A stretch of DNA of 64,000 nucleotides, taken from Tateyamaria sp. ANG-S1 (GTDB lineage: Bacteria; Pseudomonadota; Alphaproteobacteria; Rhodobacterales; Rhodobacteraceae). The position numbers and the translations under genes were made by a program. The stretch is taken from NCBI RefSeq assembly GCF_000814025.1, contig NZ_JWLL01000005.1, positions 310,001-374,000 on the forward strand. Reading direction: 5' to 3'. A model generated the notes under the pieces. It did not search any database. It saw nothing but the letters and a program-made list of their open reading frames with translations, and had not been told where the DNA came from. Below are positions 3,211-57,735 of this stretch, piece by piece; position 1 is the stretch's first letter, and the number at the start of each line of letters is the position of its first letter.

Positions 3211-3650
3211 TCCCATGAAAACAAGGCGCGCGCAGATTCTTTTCGGCGGATTCCTGAGTCAAGTTTTACTTTGTCTGGACGGCCTGCTCACGAACTTGCT
3301 ACCCCTGTTCTGCGATTTGGAATCGCCTTGGGGGGACAGGCCAGACGCCGGGCACACATGCTGCGCGTGGCGGGTGGATAGGGGATGACTGAAGCTAGTC
3401 TGATCCGAATTGGAGCATGCGCAACCGCGCCTGCCTGACCTGTCATTTACATTTTGGTGTGCGGACGGCACGTGCGGAAAACCCGGCATAGAGGGGACGG
3501 CGCGCGCCACATCTGTGAATATCCGAACGGATCAAAGCCACGCCGTAGGCAGTGGTCTGGTTTTGGTCGCCCTGAGTTTTGGGACGGGCTGTGCTGGCGG
3601 GCCATCGATCGCCAGTGAAGGAAAATGGCAGAAGGGATGGTTGGACGCGC
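3211..3650 (+). other. Noncoding region upstream of dnaA
   Basis: About 440 bp without a credible gene. It holds three GANTC sites (3249-3253, 3256-3260 and 3320-3324), the recognition sequence of the alphaproteobacterial CcrM methylase, and one DnaA-box-like nonamer on the minus strand (3514-3522, ATATTCACA, one mismatch from TTWTNCACA). I see no clear sigma-70 promoter by eye and no cluster of DnaA boxes, so this is probably the dnaA promoter region rather than the origin. Confidence 0.5.
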
Positions 3651-5015
3651 ATGACACAAGAAAAATGGGGACAGCTGAGACAACGGCTGCTCAAAACGGT
3701 AGGCCAAAATAATTACAAAACATGGATCGAGCCCCTGCAGTTTCGGGGACTGCAAGACGGGATAGCCACCTTTGATGTGCCCACGAACTTCCTGGGCAAC
3801 TATGTCAGCCAGAATTTTTCCGACCTGATCCTGCACGAGCTGAAGTCTGAGGATGACAGCATTCGTCGTCTCAGCTTTGCTGTTGCTGCAAATTCCGGCG
3901 CGCGCCCAAGCGCTGTTGATACGCCTGCGCCGGCTCCCGCAGCACCTGCGACAGTCAAACCCGCGCAATCCGCCCTGACGGCAGCGCCGCTCGACAAGCG
4001 GTTTACCTTTGACAGCTTCGTCGTCGGCAAGCCCAATGAATTGGCCCATGCAGCGGCCAAGCGTGTGGCCGAAGGTGGGCCTGTCACCTTCAACCCGCTT
4101 TTTCTGTACGGTGGCGTAGGCTTGGGTAAAACGCACCTCATGCATGCCATTGCATGGGAATTGCAGACCCGCCGTCCTGACCTGAACGTGCTCTATCTGT
4201 CGGCAGAACAGTTCATGTACCGCTTTGTCCAGGCGCTGCGCGACCGCAAGATGATGGACTTCAAAGAAATGTTCCGGTCTGTCGATGTGCTGATGGTGGA
4301 TGACGTCCAGTTCATCGCGGGCAAGGACAGCACGCAGGAAGAATTCTTTCACACCTTCAACGCGCTTGTGGACCAGAACAAGCAGATCATCATCAGCGCC
4401 GACCGCGCGCCGGGCGAGATCAAGGACCTGGAAGAGCGCGTGAAGTCGCGTCTGCAATGCGGTCTGGTCGTGGACCTGCACCCGACTGACTACGAACTGC
4501 GTCTGGGCATCCTGCAGTCCAAGGTCGAGCAGCAGATGGAGACCTATCCCGATCTGCGCGTCGAGGACGGCGTGCTGGAATTCCTCGCGCACCGCATTTC
4601 GACCAATGTGCGCGTGCTTGAAGGCGCTTTGACCCGTCTGTTCGCATTCGCCTCACTCGTGGGCCGCAAGATCGACATGGATCTGACCCAGGATTGTCTG
4701 GCCGACGTGTTGCGCGCATCGGAACGCAAGATCACCGTCGAGGAGATCCAGCGGAAGGTGTCCGAGCATTACAACATCCGCCTGAGCGACATGATCGGCC
4801 CAAAGCGCCTGCGCGCCTATGCCCGTCCGCGTCAGGTCGCGATGTATCTGGCCAAGCACATGACGTCCCGCAGCCTGCCCGAGATTGGCCGACGTTTTGG
4901 CGGTCGTGACCACACCACTGTCATGCACGGTGTGAAGCGGATCGAAGAGTTGAAACAGTCCGACGGCCAGATCGCCGAGGATCTGGAACTGCTGCGCCGC
5001 GCGCTTGAGGCGTAA
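3651..5015 (+). CDS. dnaA: Chromosomal replication initiator DnaA
   Basis: AAA+ initiator that binds DnaA boxes and melts the origin. The start at 3651 (MTQEKWGQLRQRL) has GAAGGGATGG upstream and gives 454 residues; a longer in-frame extension has no DnaA-like sequence. Domain I is roughly residues 1-75, followed by an Ala/Pro linker near 85-105. The Walker A motif GGVGLGKT is at about 154-161, Walker B VLMVDD near 213, and the domain IV DNA-binding signature GGRDHTTVMHGV near 417. It heads the dnaA-dnaN-recF-gyrB block, but a hairpin terminator follows directly, so dnaN probably has its own promoter. The likely origin is about 46 kb away. Confidence 0.98.
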   Translation: MTQEKWGQLRQRLLKTVGQNNYKTWIEPLQFRGLQDGIATFDVPTNFLGNYVSQNFSDLILHELKSEDDSIRRLSFAVAANSGARPSAVDTPAPAPAAPATVKPAQSALTAAPLDKRFTFDSFVVGKPNELAHAAAKRVAEGGPVTFNPLFLYGGVGLGKTHLMHAIAWELQTRRPDLNVLYLSAEQFMYRFVQALRDRKMMDFKEMFRSVDVLMVDDVQFIAGKDSTQEEFFHTFNALVDQNKQIIISADRAPGEIKDLEERVKSRLQCGLVVDLHPTDYELRLGILQSKVEQQMETYPDLRVEDGVLEFLAHRISTNVRVLEGALTRLFAFASLVGRKIDMDLTQDCLADVLRASERKITVEEIQRKVSEHYNIRLSDMIGPKRLRAYARPRQVAMYLAKHMTSRSLPEIGRRFGGRDHTTVMHGVKRIEELKQSDGQIAEDLELLRRALEA

Positions 5016-49396: not shown

Positions 49397-49996
49397 TTAT
49401 CCGTCGATCACTCCGCGCAGCGTCAGGAAAGCAAGCAGTTCCAGCAGCGGCATCCCAAGAACGTTGAAATAGTCCCCTTCGATGCTGTGAAACAGGCGTA
49501 CCCCCTCAGCCTCTAGCTGATATGCGCCAACTGAGTGCCGGATGTCATCCCAATTTCTGGTAATGTAGTCATTCAGGTAAGTGTCGGACACATTCCGCAT
49601 CCGCAGACGAACCTGACCGACATGGCGCCAGATCGGCTTGCCCTCATGATAAATCACGGCCGCAGACAGGAGCATATGCCGCTCACCGCGCATGGCGCGC
49701 AGTTGTTCGGCTGCATCCGATTGATCGCGGGGCTTTGACAGAATACCGCCGTCGAAGGCAAGAACCTGATCACAACCAATGACCATGGCATCTGGTACTT
49801 TGTCGGCGATCTTGCGCGCCTTCATCTCGGCCAAAGCATCGGCGATGTCCCGGGGCGGGGCGGCTTCGGCCAAAAGCGATTGCTTTATTGCATCCTCGTC
49901 CACGCGGGGCGCTTTGACTTCAAAGGATACGCCTGCATTGCGCAGCAGTTGCGCGCGGATTGTCGAGCCGGACGCAAGGATGATGGGGGTGGTCAT
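49397..49996 (-). CDS. maf: Maf family nucleotide pyrophosphatase
   Basis: House-cleaning nucleotide pyrophosphatase, 199 residues from the ATG at 49996. The N-terminal ILASGSTIRAQLLRNAG (with T-I in place of the usual S-P-R), PRVDEDAIK, GCDQVLAFDGGILSKPRD and the C-terminal GDYFNVLGMPLLELL define the family. The base choice cannot be set from sequence. Its Shine-Dalgarno sequence AGGGA lies inside a perfect 9-bp hairpin, so translation may be controlled. It is the first leftward gene from the origin region. Confidence 0.94.
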   Translation of the reverse strand: MTTPIILASGSTIRAQLLRNAGVSFEVKAPRVDEDAIKQSLLAEAAPPRDIADALAEMKARKIADKVPDAMVIGCDQVLAFDGGILSKPRDQSDAAEQLRAMRGERHMLLSAAVIYHEGKPIWRHVGQVRLRMRNVSDTYLNDYITRNWDDIRHSVGAYQLEAEGVRLFHSIEGDYFNVLGMPLLELLAFLTLRGVIDG

Positions 49997-50004
49997 GTGG
50001 ATAT
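49996..50004 (-). promoter_or_regulatory. DnaA box-like site 1
   Basis: ATATCCACA on the minus strand differs from TTATCCACA by one base. It overlaps the maf start codon. Confidence 0.45.
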
Positions 50005-50023
50005 CCCTGTGTGTCACAGGGAT
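50003..50023 (-). promoter_or_regulatory. Hairpin enclosing the maf ribosome binding site
   Basis: ATCCCTGTG and CACAGGGAT are perfect 9-bp arms around 3 bases. In the maf mRNA the second arm contains the AGGGA ribosome binding site, only 6 bases from the AUG. Confidence 0.55.
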
Positions 50024-50178
50024 GGAAGTGCGGGATCAAAGCGGTGAAGGCAAGATAGTTCAGCCCGAACCAAGCATTGTCCGCGAGTTTGAAGATCACT
50101 GCCAACGTTTCGTCCCGGGTGAGCAAGGACAAGTTACATCGTGGGGAGAAACAGGGATTTCATTGTTTTCACACACTC

Positions 50179-50187
50179 TTATCCACA
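50179..50187 (+). promoter_or_regulatory. DnaA box 2 (perfect)
   Basis: TTATCCACA, an exact match to the consensus high-affinity DnaA box, located 23 bases before the first AT-rich tract. Confidence 0.85.
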
Positions 50188-50284
50188 TTTATCATCAGTA
50201 TAGGATTTCCGTAAGTATATGTTTTTATTTATATTTATAACATCATCCACCGTCCAATGAACAAATCAGGTAAACGTATCAACC

Positions 50285-50293
50285 TGTGTGTAA
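50285..50293 (-). promoter_or_regulatory. DnaA box-like site 3 (weak)
   Basis: TTACACACA on the minus strand fits TTWTNCACA with one mismatch (position 4). Lies between the two AT-rich tracts. Confidence 0.35.
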
Positions 50294-50310
50294 GGCGTAG
50301 GGTAAGGGGA

Positions 50311-50319
50311 TAATCCACA
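50311..50319 (+). promoter_or_regulatory. DnaA box 4 (one mismatch)
   Basis: TAATCCACA differs from the consensus TTATCCACA at one base and lies 26 bases before the second AT-rich tract. Confidence 0.55.
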
Positions 50320-50408
50320 GAACGCGACGCCCCTACCAAATCATCATCTCTTTTCTTTCTTATATTTATTTATAAGGGTAGCGCAGAACGACTTGAGCAG
50401 GCGAAGAC

Positions 50409-50855
50409 ATGGATTTCATCATCTCACTCTATCCGTGGATCAAGGCGTTTCACATCATGGCTGTCATCGCGTGGATGGCTGCGTTGTTCTACCTGCCTCG
50501 GCTGTACGTCTACCACACAGAAAGTGTTGGTCTTGAGGGAGAGACCCATGCCTTGTTCCAGACGATGGAGTACAAGCTGCTGAAGGTCATCATGAACCCA
50601 GCGATGATTGCAACATGGGTTTTTGGGCTGCTGCTTGCTTCAATTCCTGGTGTGATCGATTGGGGTGCCGTTTGGCCCTGGACGAAGCTGATTGGCATTC
50701 TTGCCATGTCCGGTTTTCACGGATGGCTCGGCAAGCAGCGCAAGGCATTCGCCGCCGGTGGACCGGTAAAGACGGGTCGCCAATACCGGATGATGAATGA
50801 GGTTCCAACGCTTTTGATGGTTCTGATTGTCTTGTCGGTGGTCGTGAAGTTCTGA
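50409..50855 (+). CDS. hemJ: Protoporphyrinogen IX oxidase HemJ
   Basis: Membrane enzyme oxidising protoporphyrinogen IX to protoporphyrin IX, the HemG/HemY-independent type common in alphaproteobacteria. The 148 residues form four transmembrane helices, with the conserved block KAFHIMAVIAWMAALFYLPRLYVYH holding the two key histidines and the C-terminal RMMNEVPTLLM. It is the first rightward gene from the origin region; in related genomes a hem gene is also found beside the origin. Confidence 0.95.
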   Translation: MDFIISLYPWIKAFHIMAVIAWMAALFYLPRLYVYHTESVGLEGETHALFQTMEYKLLKVIMNPAMIATWVFGLLLASIPGVIDWGAVWPWTKLIGILAMSGFHGWLGKQRKAFAAGGPVKTGRQYRMMNEVPTLLMVLIVLSVVVKF

Positions 50856-53556: not shown

Positions 53557-55430
53557 TGGGAGTGTTTCACGTGAAACATTTTGACGTCATCGTTATCGGC
53601 GGCGGTCACGCTGGAACCGAAGCGGCACATGCTTCGGCCCGCATGGGTGTTTCCACGGCTTTGGTCACAATGAAGCGCTCGGGCATTGGGGTTATGTCCT
53701 GCAATCCCGCAATTGGTGGTTTGGGCAAAGGGCATCTAGTTCGAGAAATTGATGCTATGGATGGAGTCATGGGACGGGTCGCTGATGCTTCCGGCATCCA
53801 GTTCCGCTTGTTGAACCGTCGTAAGGGTCCGGCTGTTCAAGGTCCGCGTACACAATCTGATCGTACCGTCTATCAGGCGACTATGTTGAAGCTGACCGAG
53901 TCGGCGCCTAACCTGACAGTCATCGAAGGCGAGGTCGTTGATTTTCGGATGAACGGTAAAGACGTCGCTGGCGTTGTGCTGAGTGATGGTAGTGAAATTC
54001 CATCGTCGGCGGTTATTTTGACAACAGGCACATTTCTTCGCGGTGTCATTCATATCGGCGATATGTCCTATTCCGGTGGACGTATTGGGGATGACGCATC
54101 GGTCCCGCTTGCTGATCGTTTGGATGGTTTTGGATTGCCGATGGGTCGGTTGAAAACCGGGACGCCGCCCAGGTTGGACGGTAGAACGATCAACTGGGAC
54201 ATTTTAGAGGAACAAGAAGCGGACGAAGAGCCAAGTCTGTTTTCCTTCCTGTCCAAGTCAGCGCCGCTGCCGCAGGTCGCCTGCGGTATCACCCATACCA
54301 ACAGTAGGACTCACGACATCATTCGCCAGAACCTCGATAGGTCTGCCATGTATGGGGGGCACATAGAGGGTGTCGGGCCAAGGTATTGTCCGTCTATCGA
54401 AGACAAAATCGTTCGCTTTGCGGATAAAGACAGCCATCAGGTTTTTCTTGAGCCTGAAGGTCTGAATGACGATACGATCTACCCTAATGGTATTTCCACA
54501 TCTTTGCCTGCAGACGTCCAACTGCAATACGTGCATTCCATTGTGGGTCTGGAGCGTGCCGAAATTCTGCAGCCGGGCTACGCTATCGAATATGACTACA
54601 TTGACCCACGCGCTCTGAACGCAAGTTTGGCGTTGCGTGGGGTGAACGGCCTTTTCCTTGCTGGGCAAATCAACGGTACAACCGGATATGAAGAGGCTGC
54701 TGCGCAAGGTTTGGTTGCTGGTCTGAATGCTGCCAGTGCTGTGTTGGACGGTGATCCGGTGCATTTTCGCCGTGACGAGAGCTATATCGGCGTGATGATT
54801 GATGATCTGACGACTCGCGGTGTTTCCGAGCCGTATAGAATGTTCACATCACGTGCAGAGTTTCGATTGTCCTTGCGCGCAGATAATGCTGATCAACGGC
54901 TGACAGAGTTTGGGTGCCAGATCGGTTGCGTGAGTGATGAAAGATTTTCGCTGTTCGATCAGAAGCGGGAAAAGCTGTCGGGCCTGCGTAGGCAACTCGA
55001 CGCGGTTCAGTTCACGCCCAAAGAGATCGCAGCGCGTGGCGTTCGCATAAATCAGGATGGGACAAAGAGAACACCGTTTCAGCTTTTGGCTTTTCCGGAT
55101 GTTACGTTTGCGCAGATCGCTGATCTGGTTCCTGAAGCAAAGGGCTACGCGCCGGACATTCAAGAGCAGATAGCCCGTGATGCCTTGTACGCCAACTACA
55201 TTGCGCGGCAGCGCAAGGATATTGAAAAACTGCGTAAGGATGAGCAGCTGAAGATCCCGGCTGGCTTCGATTACTCAGAAATTTCAGGTCTCTCCTCTGA
55301 GCTGAAGTCGAAGCTTTCCACGGTTGCACCGGTGGACCTGGCGCAAGCTGGGCGTATCGACGGAATGACGCCAGCGGCACTTGCCCTCATTCTTGGGCGG
55401 ATTCGACTGCTTGAAAAGAAATCTGCATGA
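53556..55430 (+). CDS. mnmG: MnmG (GidA) tRNA uridine modification enzyme
   Basis: FAD-dependent partner of MnmE. The start at 53556 overlaps the mnmE stop by one base and gives 624 residues; a GTG three bases upstream is possible. The FAD loop is [19 protein letters not shown], followed by [34 protein letters not shown] and [20 protein letters not shown]. The codons for FHVKH near the N-terminus lie on a perfect parS site, explaining that motif. It is translationally coupled to rsmG. Confidence 0.97.
53563..53578. other. parS site 1 (ParB-binding)
   Basis: TGTTTCACGTGAAACA, a perfect 16-bp palindrome and the consensus bacterial parS. It lies inside the 5' end of mnmG, about 3.4 kb from the putative origin and 3.3 kb from parB. 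Confidence 0.95.
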
Positions 55431-56038
55431 TCAGAGTTCCTGATTGGCTGCCATACGATGTTTCACGTGAAACATTGGAGAAGTTGCATGCTTACTCTGC
55501 GCTAATCCATAAGTGGAATCCCAGAATCAACTTGGTTGCACGATCAACACTTCAGGATTTGGAAGACAGACACATCTGGGACAGTGCCCAAGTGTATATA
55601 GATCGGGATGGCGGCTGGGTTGATTTCGGCAGCGGAGGTGGCCTGCCAGGTGTTGTTGTTGCAATCCTTGCTGACGGGTTCGGCGATGATCTTTCGGTGA
55701 CGCTCGTTGAAAGCGATCAAAGGAAGGCGGCCTTTTTGCGCACTTGCGCACGAGAGCTGGAAATTCCCATGAAGGTCATCGCCAGCCGCGTTGAAAGTAT
55801 TGCTGCGCTGAACGCTTACACAATATCTGCGCGTGCTCTGGCACCGCTTGATATGTTGCTTGGTTTTGCCGATCACCATTTGGCGGCGGACGGACTTTGC
55901 GTCTTTCAAAAGGGCGAACAGTGGCGACGTGAAATTGCCGATGCCGAAAGAAACTGGCGGTTTTCATACGAAGTGATGCACAGTAAAACCAAAAGCGAAG
56001 CAGTCGTCCTGCAAATCAAGGATATCCAGCGTGTCTGA
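55427..56038 (+). CDS. rsmG: 16S rRNA m7G527 methyltransferase RsmG (GidB)
   Basis: SAM-dependent methyltransferase acting on G527 of 16S rRNA; loss gives low-level streptomycin resistance in other bacteria. The 203 residues carry [22 protein letters not shown], the SAM loop [15 protein letters not shown] and the [11 protein letters not shown] motif. The DVSRET residues near the N-terminus are encoded by the second parS site. Overlaps: 4 bases with mnmG and 8 with parA. Confidence 0.96.
55459..55474. other. parS site 2 (ParB-binding)
   Basis: A second exact TGTTTCACGTGAAACA, inside the 5' part of rsmG, 1,896 bp (start to start) from parS site 1 and 1.4 kb before parB. Confidence 0.95.
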
Positions 56039-56840
56039 CCCCACGCGGCCGCCAGGGCCCAAAATCATCTCTGTCGCCAATCAAAAGGGTGGTGTGGGCA
56101 AAACCACAACAACCATCAACCTTGCCGCAGCATTGGTTGAGTTGGGAAACAGGGTTCTCGTTGTCGATTTGGACCCTCAAGGCAATGCATCCACTGGTTT
56201 GGGCATCGAAATGGATGATCGCGAGCGTACGACTTATGATCTGTTGCTTGAGGATGTTGCGCTAGAGGATGTGATCCTCGCGACGGATATCGAAGATCTT
56301 GCGATTGTGCCAGCGACCGTTGACCTTAGCTCGGCCGATATTGAGCTTATTTCAAACGAAAGGCGTAGCTTTTTGCTGCATGATGCTTTGCGGCAGACTG
56401 ACATAGACGCCTATGAGTTTGACTTCGTTTTAATCGATTGCCCGCCGTCGCTGAACCTTTTGACGGTCAATGCGATGATCGCATCGCATTCCATATTGGT
56501 GCCGCTTCAAAGTGAATTCTTTGCGCTTGAGGGCCTGTCGCAGTTGATGCTGACCGTCCGGGAGGTTCGGCAAACCGGCAATCCCAATTTGCGGATCGAA
56601 GGTGTCGTGCTGACAATGCACGATGCGCGTAACAATCTGAGCCAACAGGTTGAGCAGGACGCGCGTGATAATCTTGGGGACATTGTGTTCAAGACGCGGA
56701 TACCGCGCAACGTGCGAGTAAGTGAAGCGCCGTCGTTCGCGCTTCCGGTTCTTTCGTATGATAGCATGTCCAAGGGCGCAATCGCCTATCGTGACCTGGC
56801 CAAAGAACTGGTCGCCAACAATGCAGCAGTGGGGGCCTAA
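56031..56840 (+). CDS. parA: Chromosome-partitioning ATPase ParA
   Basis: Walker-type ATPase that moves ParB-parS complexes. It starts with GTG at 56031, overlapping rsmG by 8 bases, and has 269 residues. The deviant Walker A NQKGGVGKTTTTINLA (both lysines present), VVDLDPQGNAST and DFVLIDCPPSLNLLT are canonical. The absence of a long N-terminal DNA-binding domain marks it as the chromosomal (type Ia Soj-like) form. Confidence 0.97.
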   Translation: MSDPTRPPGPKIISVANQKGGVGKTTTTINLAAALVELGNRVLVVDLDPQGNASTGLGIEMDDRERTTYDLLLEDVALEDVILATDIEDLAIVPATVDLSSADIELISNERRSFLLHDALRQTDIDAYEFDFVLIDCPPSLNLLTVNAMIASHSILVPLQSEFFALEGLSQLMLTVREVRQTGNPNLRIEGVVLTMHDARNNLSQQVEQDARDNLGDIVFKTRIPRNVRVSEAPSFALPVLSYDSMSKGAIAYRDLAKELVANNAAVGA

Positions 56841-56841
56841 C

Positions 56842-57735
56842 ATGGCGAACAATGACAAGAAACGAGGGCTGGGCCGGGGTCTCTCTGCTCTCATGGCGGA
56901 TGTGAACGAGCCAGCGCCGCAAGCTGCCTCCGCAGGCGGGGCTGGCGAACAGCAGATTCCGATCGAAAAGATAAAGCCGAACCCGAACCAGCCGCGCCGC
57001 CAATTTGAAGCTGCTCCATTGGAGGACCTCGTTGCGTCGATCAAGGAAAAGGGAGTCTTACAGCCTTTGATCGTGCGCCCATTGGGCGAAGGATTCGAGA
57101 TCGTCGCCGGTGAACGCCGCTGGCGCGCTGCGCAGCAAGCGCAACTTCACGAACTTCCGGTGCTCGTGCGTGATTTCACGGACACTGAGGTTCTTGAGGT
57201 CGCCATTATTGAAAACATCCAACGCGCTGATCTGAACCCAATGGAAGAGGCTGCGGGCTACCGGCAACTGATGGATCGTTTCGGTCATACCCAAGAGAAG
57301 ATGGCTGAGGCTTTGGGTAAGTCCCGCAGTCACATCGCCAATCTGCTGCGCCTTCTGCAATTGCCAGACTCGATCCAGAGCTTTGTCATGGATGGGGCAC
57401 TAAGTGCGGGCCACGCGCGTGCGTTGATTACTGCGGCCGATCCGCTGGCGCTCGCCAAAACGGTCATTGTCGACGGTTTGTCGGTTCGCGCAACCGAAGC
57501 ACTGGTTAAGAAAGAGGGCGAAGGATCTGGAAACAAGAATTTTACTGGATTGTCTAAGCCCAAGGTCGTTGAAAAGGATGCGGACACCAGAGCGCTGGAA
57601 GATGACTTGTCTGCGGCCACAGGCGTGAAAGTGTCGTTGACGCATAAACCGGATGGTGAGTCCGGTACTTTGACCCTGCAGTACAAGACGTTGGATCAAC
57701 TTGATGATCTGTGTCGTAGGTTGAGCACAAGCTAG
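56842..57735 (+). CDS. parB: Chromosome-partitioning protein ParB
   Basis: CTP-dependent clamp that loads at parS and spreads. The start MANNDKKRGLGRGLSALMAD is 1 bp after the parA stop with GGGGG upstream; 297 residues. The basic N-terminal GLGRGLSAL tail is the ParA-activating segment, followed by NPNQPRRQF, the CTP-binding GERRWRAAQ box, ENIQRADLNPMEEA and an HTH (QEKMAEALGKSRSHIANLLRLL). Its stop TAG shares the palindrome CTAG with the stop of convergent hemW. Confidence 0.97.
   Translation: MANNDKKRGLGRGLSALMADVNEPAPQAASAGGAGEQQIPIEKIKPNPNQPRRQFEAAPLEDLVASIKEKGVLQPLIVRPLGEGFEIVAGERRWRAAQQAQLHELPVLVRDFTDTEVLEVAIIENIQRADLNPMEEAAGYRQLMDRFGHTQEKMAEALGKSRSHIANLLRLLQLPDSIQSFVMDGALSAGHARALITAADPLALAKTVIVDGLSVRATEALVKKEGEGSGNKNFTGLSKPKVVEKDADTRALEDDLSAATGVKVSLTHKPDGESGTLTLQYKTLDQLDDLCRRLSTS

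Follow-up and report, generated by a model that had tools for sequence, protein, structure and literature searches.

The maf-hemJ intergenic gap as the probable replication origin of the main chromosome of Tateyamaria sp. ANG-S1, distant from dnaA

Described origins and gene organization of the locus

According to DoriC, Rhodobacteraceae have a conserved position of oriC next to maf, as stated in a passage on Ketogulonicigenium vulgare (PMC4793288). A family-wide study assigns oriC in 101 Rhodobacteraceae and names proximity of parAB and a local low G+C among the criteria (PMC6699656). A recent marker-frequency study, whose organisms include Cereibacter sphaeroides and three Paracoccus, warns that some DoriC origins are wrong (PMC13342612). 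In Caulobacter the neighbours of the origin are hemE and COG1806 (Brassinga et al., as cited in a passage of PMC1914354). The Sphingopyxis oriC, defined by comparison, consists of conserved intergenic DnaA boxes and a putative unwinding element and adjoins hemE (PMC4741004). A literature search pairing hemJ with oriC found nothing.

The window, i.e., the whole stretch of 64,000 nucleotides that was analysed, corresponds to positions 310001-374000 of contig C28 (806 kb) in the source genome (G000), a draft of 4.43 Mb in 32 contigs. The candidate origin is the 412-bp gap between maf and hemJ (window 49,997-50,408), which is separated from the dnaA stop codon, to its left, by 45.0 kb. The main features, in window coordinates, are:

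3579-5015, plus strand (C28:313,579 on): dnaA; true start unrefined
49397-49996, minus strand: maf (PF02545, Pfam match), left neighbour of the gap
49997-50408, no strand: candidate oriC, the maf-hemJ gap, proposed from its box cluster, A+T content, instability and conservation in relatives
50409-50855, plus strand: hemJ (UPF0093, PF03653, Pfam match), right neighbour of the gap
53563-53578, no strand: parS, exact 16-base palindrome at the mnmG start, from a motif scan
55459-55474, no strand: parS, exact, near the rsmG start, from a motif scan
56031-57735, plus strand: parA and parB (AAA_31; ParB_N, HTH_ParB), from domain matches; exact starts unrefined

We take the UPF0093/PF03653 protein beside the gap to be HemJ. 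Transcription diverges from the gap, with maf on the minus and hemJ on the plus strand, as the first-pass annotation of this DNA had read it; its placement of a dnaA-dnaN-recF-gyrB block far to the left also holds for dnaA, dnaN, a PF02463 protein (RecF/RecN/SMC-type) and gyrB. An open reading frame of 153 codons on the plus strand (49779-50240), antisense to maf and reaching into the gap, was taken as spurious. The genes to the left are maf, aroE, coaE, a dnaQ-like exonuclease gene, secB and an FxsA gene, and those to the right are hemJ, rho, mnmE, mnmG, rsmG, parA and parB. Apart from the FxsA gene they form an outer frame that is presumably the same around the Caulobacter origin. The flanking gene order had been equated with that around the Caulobacter origin; this presumably holds for the outer frame, while the inner neighbours hemE and COG1806 are gone: hemE is located on another contig (C1:192522), and a search of the whole genome gave no match to COG1806 (PF03618), although the control search does find the Caulobacter protein.

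The two exact parS sites are the only ones on the 806 kb of C28, and both lie 3-5 kb right of the gap. Both palindromes fall within coding sequence, where the proteins read FHVKH (mnmG start) and VSRET (rsmG start).

Compared with the maf-adjacent origins of Rhodobacteraceae, the locus has the same position beside maf, DnaA boxes, a locally low G+C and parAB nearby; nothing essential differs, although the raw G-C skew minimum is 53 kb off here. An oriC at maf-hemJ is thus a correct and ordinary annotation and the usual arrangement in Rhodobacteraceae, ordinary because oriC beside maf has already been called typical of the family (PMC4793288, in the passage mentioned above). With the Caulobacter crescentus Cori/Rickettsia type (hemE-ori-COG1806) the locus shares DnaA boxes and an AT-rich region, but here hemE has moved, COG1806 was not found in the genome and the gap contains no CtrA site, TTAA or GANTC. 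The resemblance to the Sphingopyxis origin lies in the conserved intergenic boxes and the putative unwinding element, both recognized by comparison, whereas the neighbouring hemE is not shared.

DnaA boxes and AT-rich tracts

The G+C content of the gap is 0.439, versus 0.604 for contig C28. The elements recognized in it are given below with their mean majority in an alignment of 97 loci projected on the window:

49996-50004, minus strand: DnaA box A, ATATCCACA, one mismatch, one base in common with the maf ATG; mean majority 0.83
50179-50187, plus strand: DnaA box B, TTATCCACA, exact consensus; mean majority 0.75
50187-50246, no strand: AT tract 1, the 60 bp of lowest stability on C28 and a candidate unwinding region; mean majority 0.51
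50190-50202, plus strand: weak candidate for an IHF-like site, loose WATCAN5WTR
50284-50292, minus strand: degenerate DnaA box with two mismatches, read from the letters; the family consensus shows a box in this position; mean majority 0.70
50311-50319, plus strand: DnaA box C, TAATCCACA; mean majority 0.81
50331-50349, plus strand: element lying between box C and the T-rich tract, conserved in the family with a consensus near CCCTACAAAATCATCATC; mean majority 0.77
50350-50376, plus strand: AT tract 2, T-rich, candidate unwinding region; mean majority 0.65

The boxes that had been called earlier, namely an exact one at 50179, two with one mismatch at 50311 and 49996, and a weaker one (placed here at 50284-50292), are correctly located. 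The total of 8 near-boxes in the window does not exceed chance (shuffle mean 6.9, with 39 of 100 shuffles reaching 8); this count was dropped as evidence, and clustering was used instead. Three near-boxes, one of them exact, occur within a 324-bp span of the gap, whereas the density on C28 (81 near-boxes in 806 kb) corresponds to 0.043 expected per 430 bp; the Poisson probability of at least three is about 1.3e-5, for a place picked beforehand by the earlier reader. The gap is moreover the top-scoring 450-bp box window of C28 (score 4 versus 2 for the next best), and box B is one of four exact boxes on the contig. Around dnaA (C28:312,001-316,000) there are no near-boxes.

Both AT-rich tracts reported at first reading are present and are backed by a duplex stability scan of C28. 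The best 60 bp of the gap (from 50187) and its best 100 bp (from 50147) are less stable than any other of the approximately 806,000 places on the contig, and 17 places are less stable than the best 40 bp of the right tract (from 50337).

Caulobacter Cori carries GANTC sites. The gap has none, and no CtrA site (TTAA-N7-TTAA), nor even a single TTAA, occurs in 49990-50420; CtrA control of the maf-hemJ origin was rejected for lack of CtrA sites. The only IHF match in the gap is the loose one at 50190, strict matches being absent from it. With neither CtrA sites nor TTAA nor GANTC, and with a loose IHF match, the gap gives no indication of CtrA control as in Caulobacter. Among the 97 family gaps, TTAA-N7-TTAA is present in eight (1.0 expected over all) and the strict IHF form in 12 (2.8 expected).

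Conservation among relatives

The family survey covered 120 genomes. Matches to hemJ were found in 114 of them (95 strong matches were used and 19 weak ones dropped) and were absent from six; for maf, 114 of the 116 matching genomes gave strong matches and were used, second weaker copies being dropped. The places of dnaA were used in 76 of the 120 genomes; in the other 44, judged by eye, dnaA is off the hemJ contig or a strong hemJ match is lacking. The two genes flanking the gap are on one contig in 90 of 95 genomes and are divergent in all 90, separated by 341-603 bp (median 414) in 81 genomes and by 1.2-2.3 kb in nine. In the 42 genomes where dnaA shares the contig with hemJ, the direct distance between the two is 21-503 kb in 36; the contigs of the remaining six begin at or near dnaA, and the distance round the circle is not part of this range. 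The closest HemJ among the best 80 relatives is that of Tateyamaria omphalii (89% identity).

Two loci have arrangements that look like older steps towards the maf-hemJ form. Rhodobacteraceae bacterium NBU2976 (L118:864-2993) has the Caulobacter order, with maf, COG1806, a gap with five near-boxes, hemE and hemJ, and in Rubricella aquisinus (L114:1187-2995) maf and COG1806 are followed by a gap with one exact and one near-box and then by hemJ. In six Paracoccus loci (L119, L126, L137, L141, L142 and L148) maf is missing from the fetched stretch, and near-boxes are found upstream of hemJ in all six; in these Paracoccus the origin has apparently kept its place beside hemJ.

For the comparison of sequences, 97 mutually related loci with gaps of 346-483 bp were counted, the one described here included. 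They were left from 110 loci after dropping nine without a maf match (the six Paracoccus and three with hemJ at a contig end) and four with gaps of 1.2-2.1 kb. The 97 gaps (41,119 bp) contain 290 near-boxes, 64 of them exact, versus 11.2 and 0.33 in order-1 shuffles; their flanking sequence (483,072 bp) has 80, none of them exact. At least one near-box is present in 95 of the gaps and at least two in 89, two gaps having none. By comparison, the 450 bp upstream of dnaA hold no near-box in 27 loci, our own among them (30 loci were fetched, and three whose contig starts at dnaA were left out).

A profile of 95 relatives, built with the window and Tateyamaria excluded and extending 30 bases into maf and 20 into hemJ, recovered the gap on C28 with an E-value of 1.3e-47; its sole other match on the contig is weak and lies inside the gap. 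The conservation is concentrated in the elements: boxes A, B and C, the degenerate box and the CCCTAC...ATCATCATC element (mean majority 0.77) stand above the spacers between them (0.25-0.42), and box B, although exact, is less well kept than box A at the maf start and box C near hemJ. Tateyamaria omphalii has unchanged boxes A and C, one difference in the element, a few in the T-rich tract and an altered box B. With up to three mismatches, a best match to CTACAAAATCATCATC was obtained in 47 of 97 gaps, against one of 97 shuffles. The pattern CTACAANATCATCATC, tried as a class-wide marker, was rejected: 200 of 289 genomes match it with at most one mismatch, and since nearly all of the matches listed have one mismatch and are scattered over the genomes, it is uninformative on its own. 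The instability is positioned as well. The least stable 30 bp lie 30-60 bp upstream of hemJ in 52 of 97 loci and 150-210 bp upstream in 40, and the two family-wide stability minima, about 40 and 180 bp upstream of hemJ, coincide with the positions of tracts 2 and 1.

Nucleotide skew, alternative explanations and proposed function

Skew of the source genome was computed on C28 alone, one contig of the 32-contig draft. The raw cumulative G-C skew has its minimum at C28:306,988, 6.6 kb left of dnaA and 53 kb left of the gap, and KOPS-like polarity has its minimum on C28 at 306,558, near dnaA. The best two-segment G-C change point is C28:359,851 (window 49,851), but the optimum is broad, spanning 304,827-455,499 at a tolerance of 2%. 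The cumulative T-A and keto minima are at C28:359,785 (window 49,785), 212 bp left of the gap. After strand correction (four-fold sites, gene strand as covariate), the T-A and keto change points lie at C28:359,000. Against this position the dnaA site (314,000) is worse by 40 (T-A) and 17 (keto) log units, and 307,000 by 40 and 11, respectively. Strand-corrected G-C alone is best at 452,000, with 307,000 at 5.5 and 360,000 at 6.5 log units below the best. The bootstrap ranges are 352,000-360,000 for T-A and 308,000-452,000 for G-C and keto.

A G-C skew minimum away from the gap had been named at first reading as evidence against this placement. On C28 the raw G-C minimum is indeed near dnaA, while the T-A and keto measures, raw as well as strand-corrected, are at the gap. 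The skew support for oriC at the gap is not clean, and raw G-C skew as sole locator was discarded, as it disagrees with the other measures on C28.

Skew was also sampled in 20-kb stretches in four relatives with a distant dnaA. In G012 the G-C minimum (1,160-1,180 kb) adjoins hemJ (1,181.5 kb), dnaA being at 1,397 kb, 216 kb off, but T-A is lowest around 1,090-1,150 kb, away from hemJ. In G078 the G-C minimum (641-661 kb) is likewise at hemJ (661 kb), with dnaA at 895.5 kb, 234 kb off; a point at 454 kb is nearly as low in G-C, and T-A has no turn at the gap. The G-C minimum of G048 (80-100 kb, with a nearly equal low 161 kb to the left of dnaA) is followed by hemJ 23 kb further (123 kb), and the T-A minimum of this genome is at 20-40 kb. 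Finally, in G085 the G-C minimum (approximately 2.36-2.38 Mb) fits neither hemJ (2.736 Mb) nor dnaA (2.233 Mb), and this genome, where the two are 503 kb apart, was abandoned as a decisive case. G-C skew thus turns close to maf-hemJ in two of the four relatives, loosely in one and without fit in one.

These data bear on the possibility that replication starts beside dnaA, or somewhere within the 53 kb between, and that the gap is just a DnaA-bound regulatory site. It agrees with the minima of raw G-C skew and KOPS-like polarity, which fall near 307 kb and not far from dnaA (313.6 kb), and strand-corrected G-C alone fails to separate 307 from 360 kb. We nevertheless consider such a location very improbable, given that neither C28:312,001-316,000 nor the upstream regions of dnaA in 27 loci have a near-box, that T-A and keto skew oppose an origin at dnaA, and that in G012 and G078 the G-C skew turns at maf-hemJ with dnaA more than 200 kb away. 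The gap could also be a divergent maf/hemJ promoter region, where DnaA acts as a transcription factor without initiating replication; in its favour are the divergent orientation of the two genes and the overlap of one box with the start of maf. A promoter, however, needs less than what is found, namely a fixed length, several boxes, two positioned minima of low stability and a T-A/keto turn, and near-boxes upstream of hemJ persist in all six Paracoccus loci whose fetched stretch lacks maf. We regard this reading, too, as very improbable.

To judge from the sequence, then, the maf-hemJ gap is very probably the oriC of the main chromosome, away from dnaA. The first-pass annotation had put oriC here rather than by default beside dnaA, and this placement is supported by box clustering, conservation in the family, instability, parS with parAB, and T-A and keto skew. 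In the proposed working of the origin, DnaA made from the distant dnaA gene would bind boxes A, B and C and the weaker sites of the gap, and the resulting filament could melt one or both AT tracts (50187-50246 and 50337-50376). After helicase loading two forks would leave, one through maf towards dnaA and the other through hemJ, and ParB bound to the parS pair 3-5 kb right of the gap would pull the new origins apart.

We lean towards the T-rich tract beside box C and the ATCATCATC element as the putative melting site, because sequence is kept there (0.65-0.77 versus 0.51 in tract 1); in the source genome, however, the lower duplex stability is that of tract 1, so that either tract may melt. 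A more far-reaching proposal, which we regard as rather doubtful, is that the right-hand module (degenerate box, box C, CCCTACAAAATCATCATC and the T-rich tract; 50284-50376) is a basal unwinding element specific to Rhodobacteraceae, with an (ATC)3 repeat replacing the DnaA-trio, and would form the functional core instead of the exact box. Read by eye, the (ATC)3 repeat does not seem to fit the DnaA-trio consensus. Searches of the literature by topic gave no description of the right-hand conserved element.

Setting the replication zero point 45 kb from dnaA affects how gene dosage, strand bias and growth rates derived from coverage are read in the family. Some family genomes are rotated to start at dnaA, a contig beginning within approximately 360 bases of this gene in 8 of 120. 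The family alignment offers a testable map of the origin.

Two close pairs of exact boxes elsewhere in the genome (C29:317,687/317,763 and C23:776,982/777,654) were considered as rival origins and set aside; the genes near them code for a PF03372 protein of exonuclease III type and an HD-domain protein, and for a protein of sarcosine-oxidase type (PF17806, PF01571). The two boxes of the C29 pair (C29:317687-317771; L210:5687-5771) are 76 bp apart and lie upstream of the exonuclease III-type gene (PF03372), beside a 172-aa frame of GDGVEMFSTSSAPTA-type repeats without a Pfam match (L210:5873-6391). Among 30 exonuclease III-type loci, our own included, eight have at least two near-boxes within 400 bp upstream, with a spacing of 75-76 bp in five of the eight; contig ends truncate a few of the loci, and in those the inspected place may be off. 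The regions upstream of the exonuclease III-type genes contain 10 exact boxes, versus two in the remaining approximately 98 kb. The C29 pair is possibly a DnaA-titrating or DnaA-regulated site.
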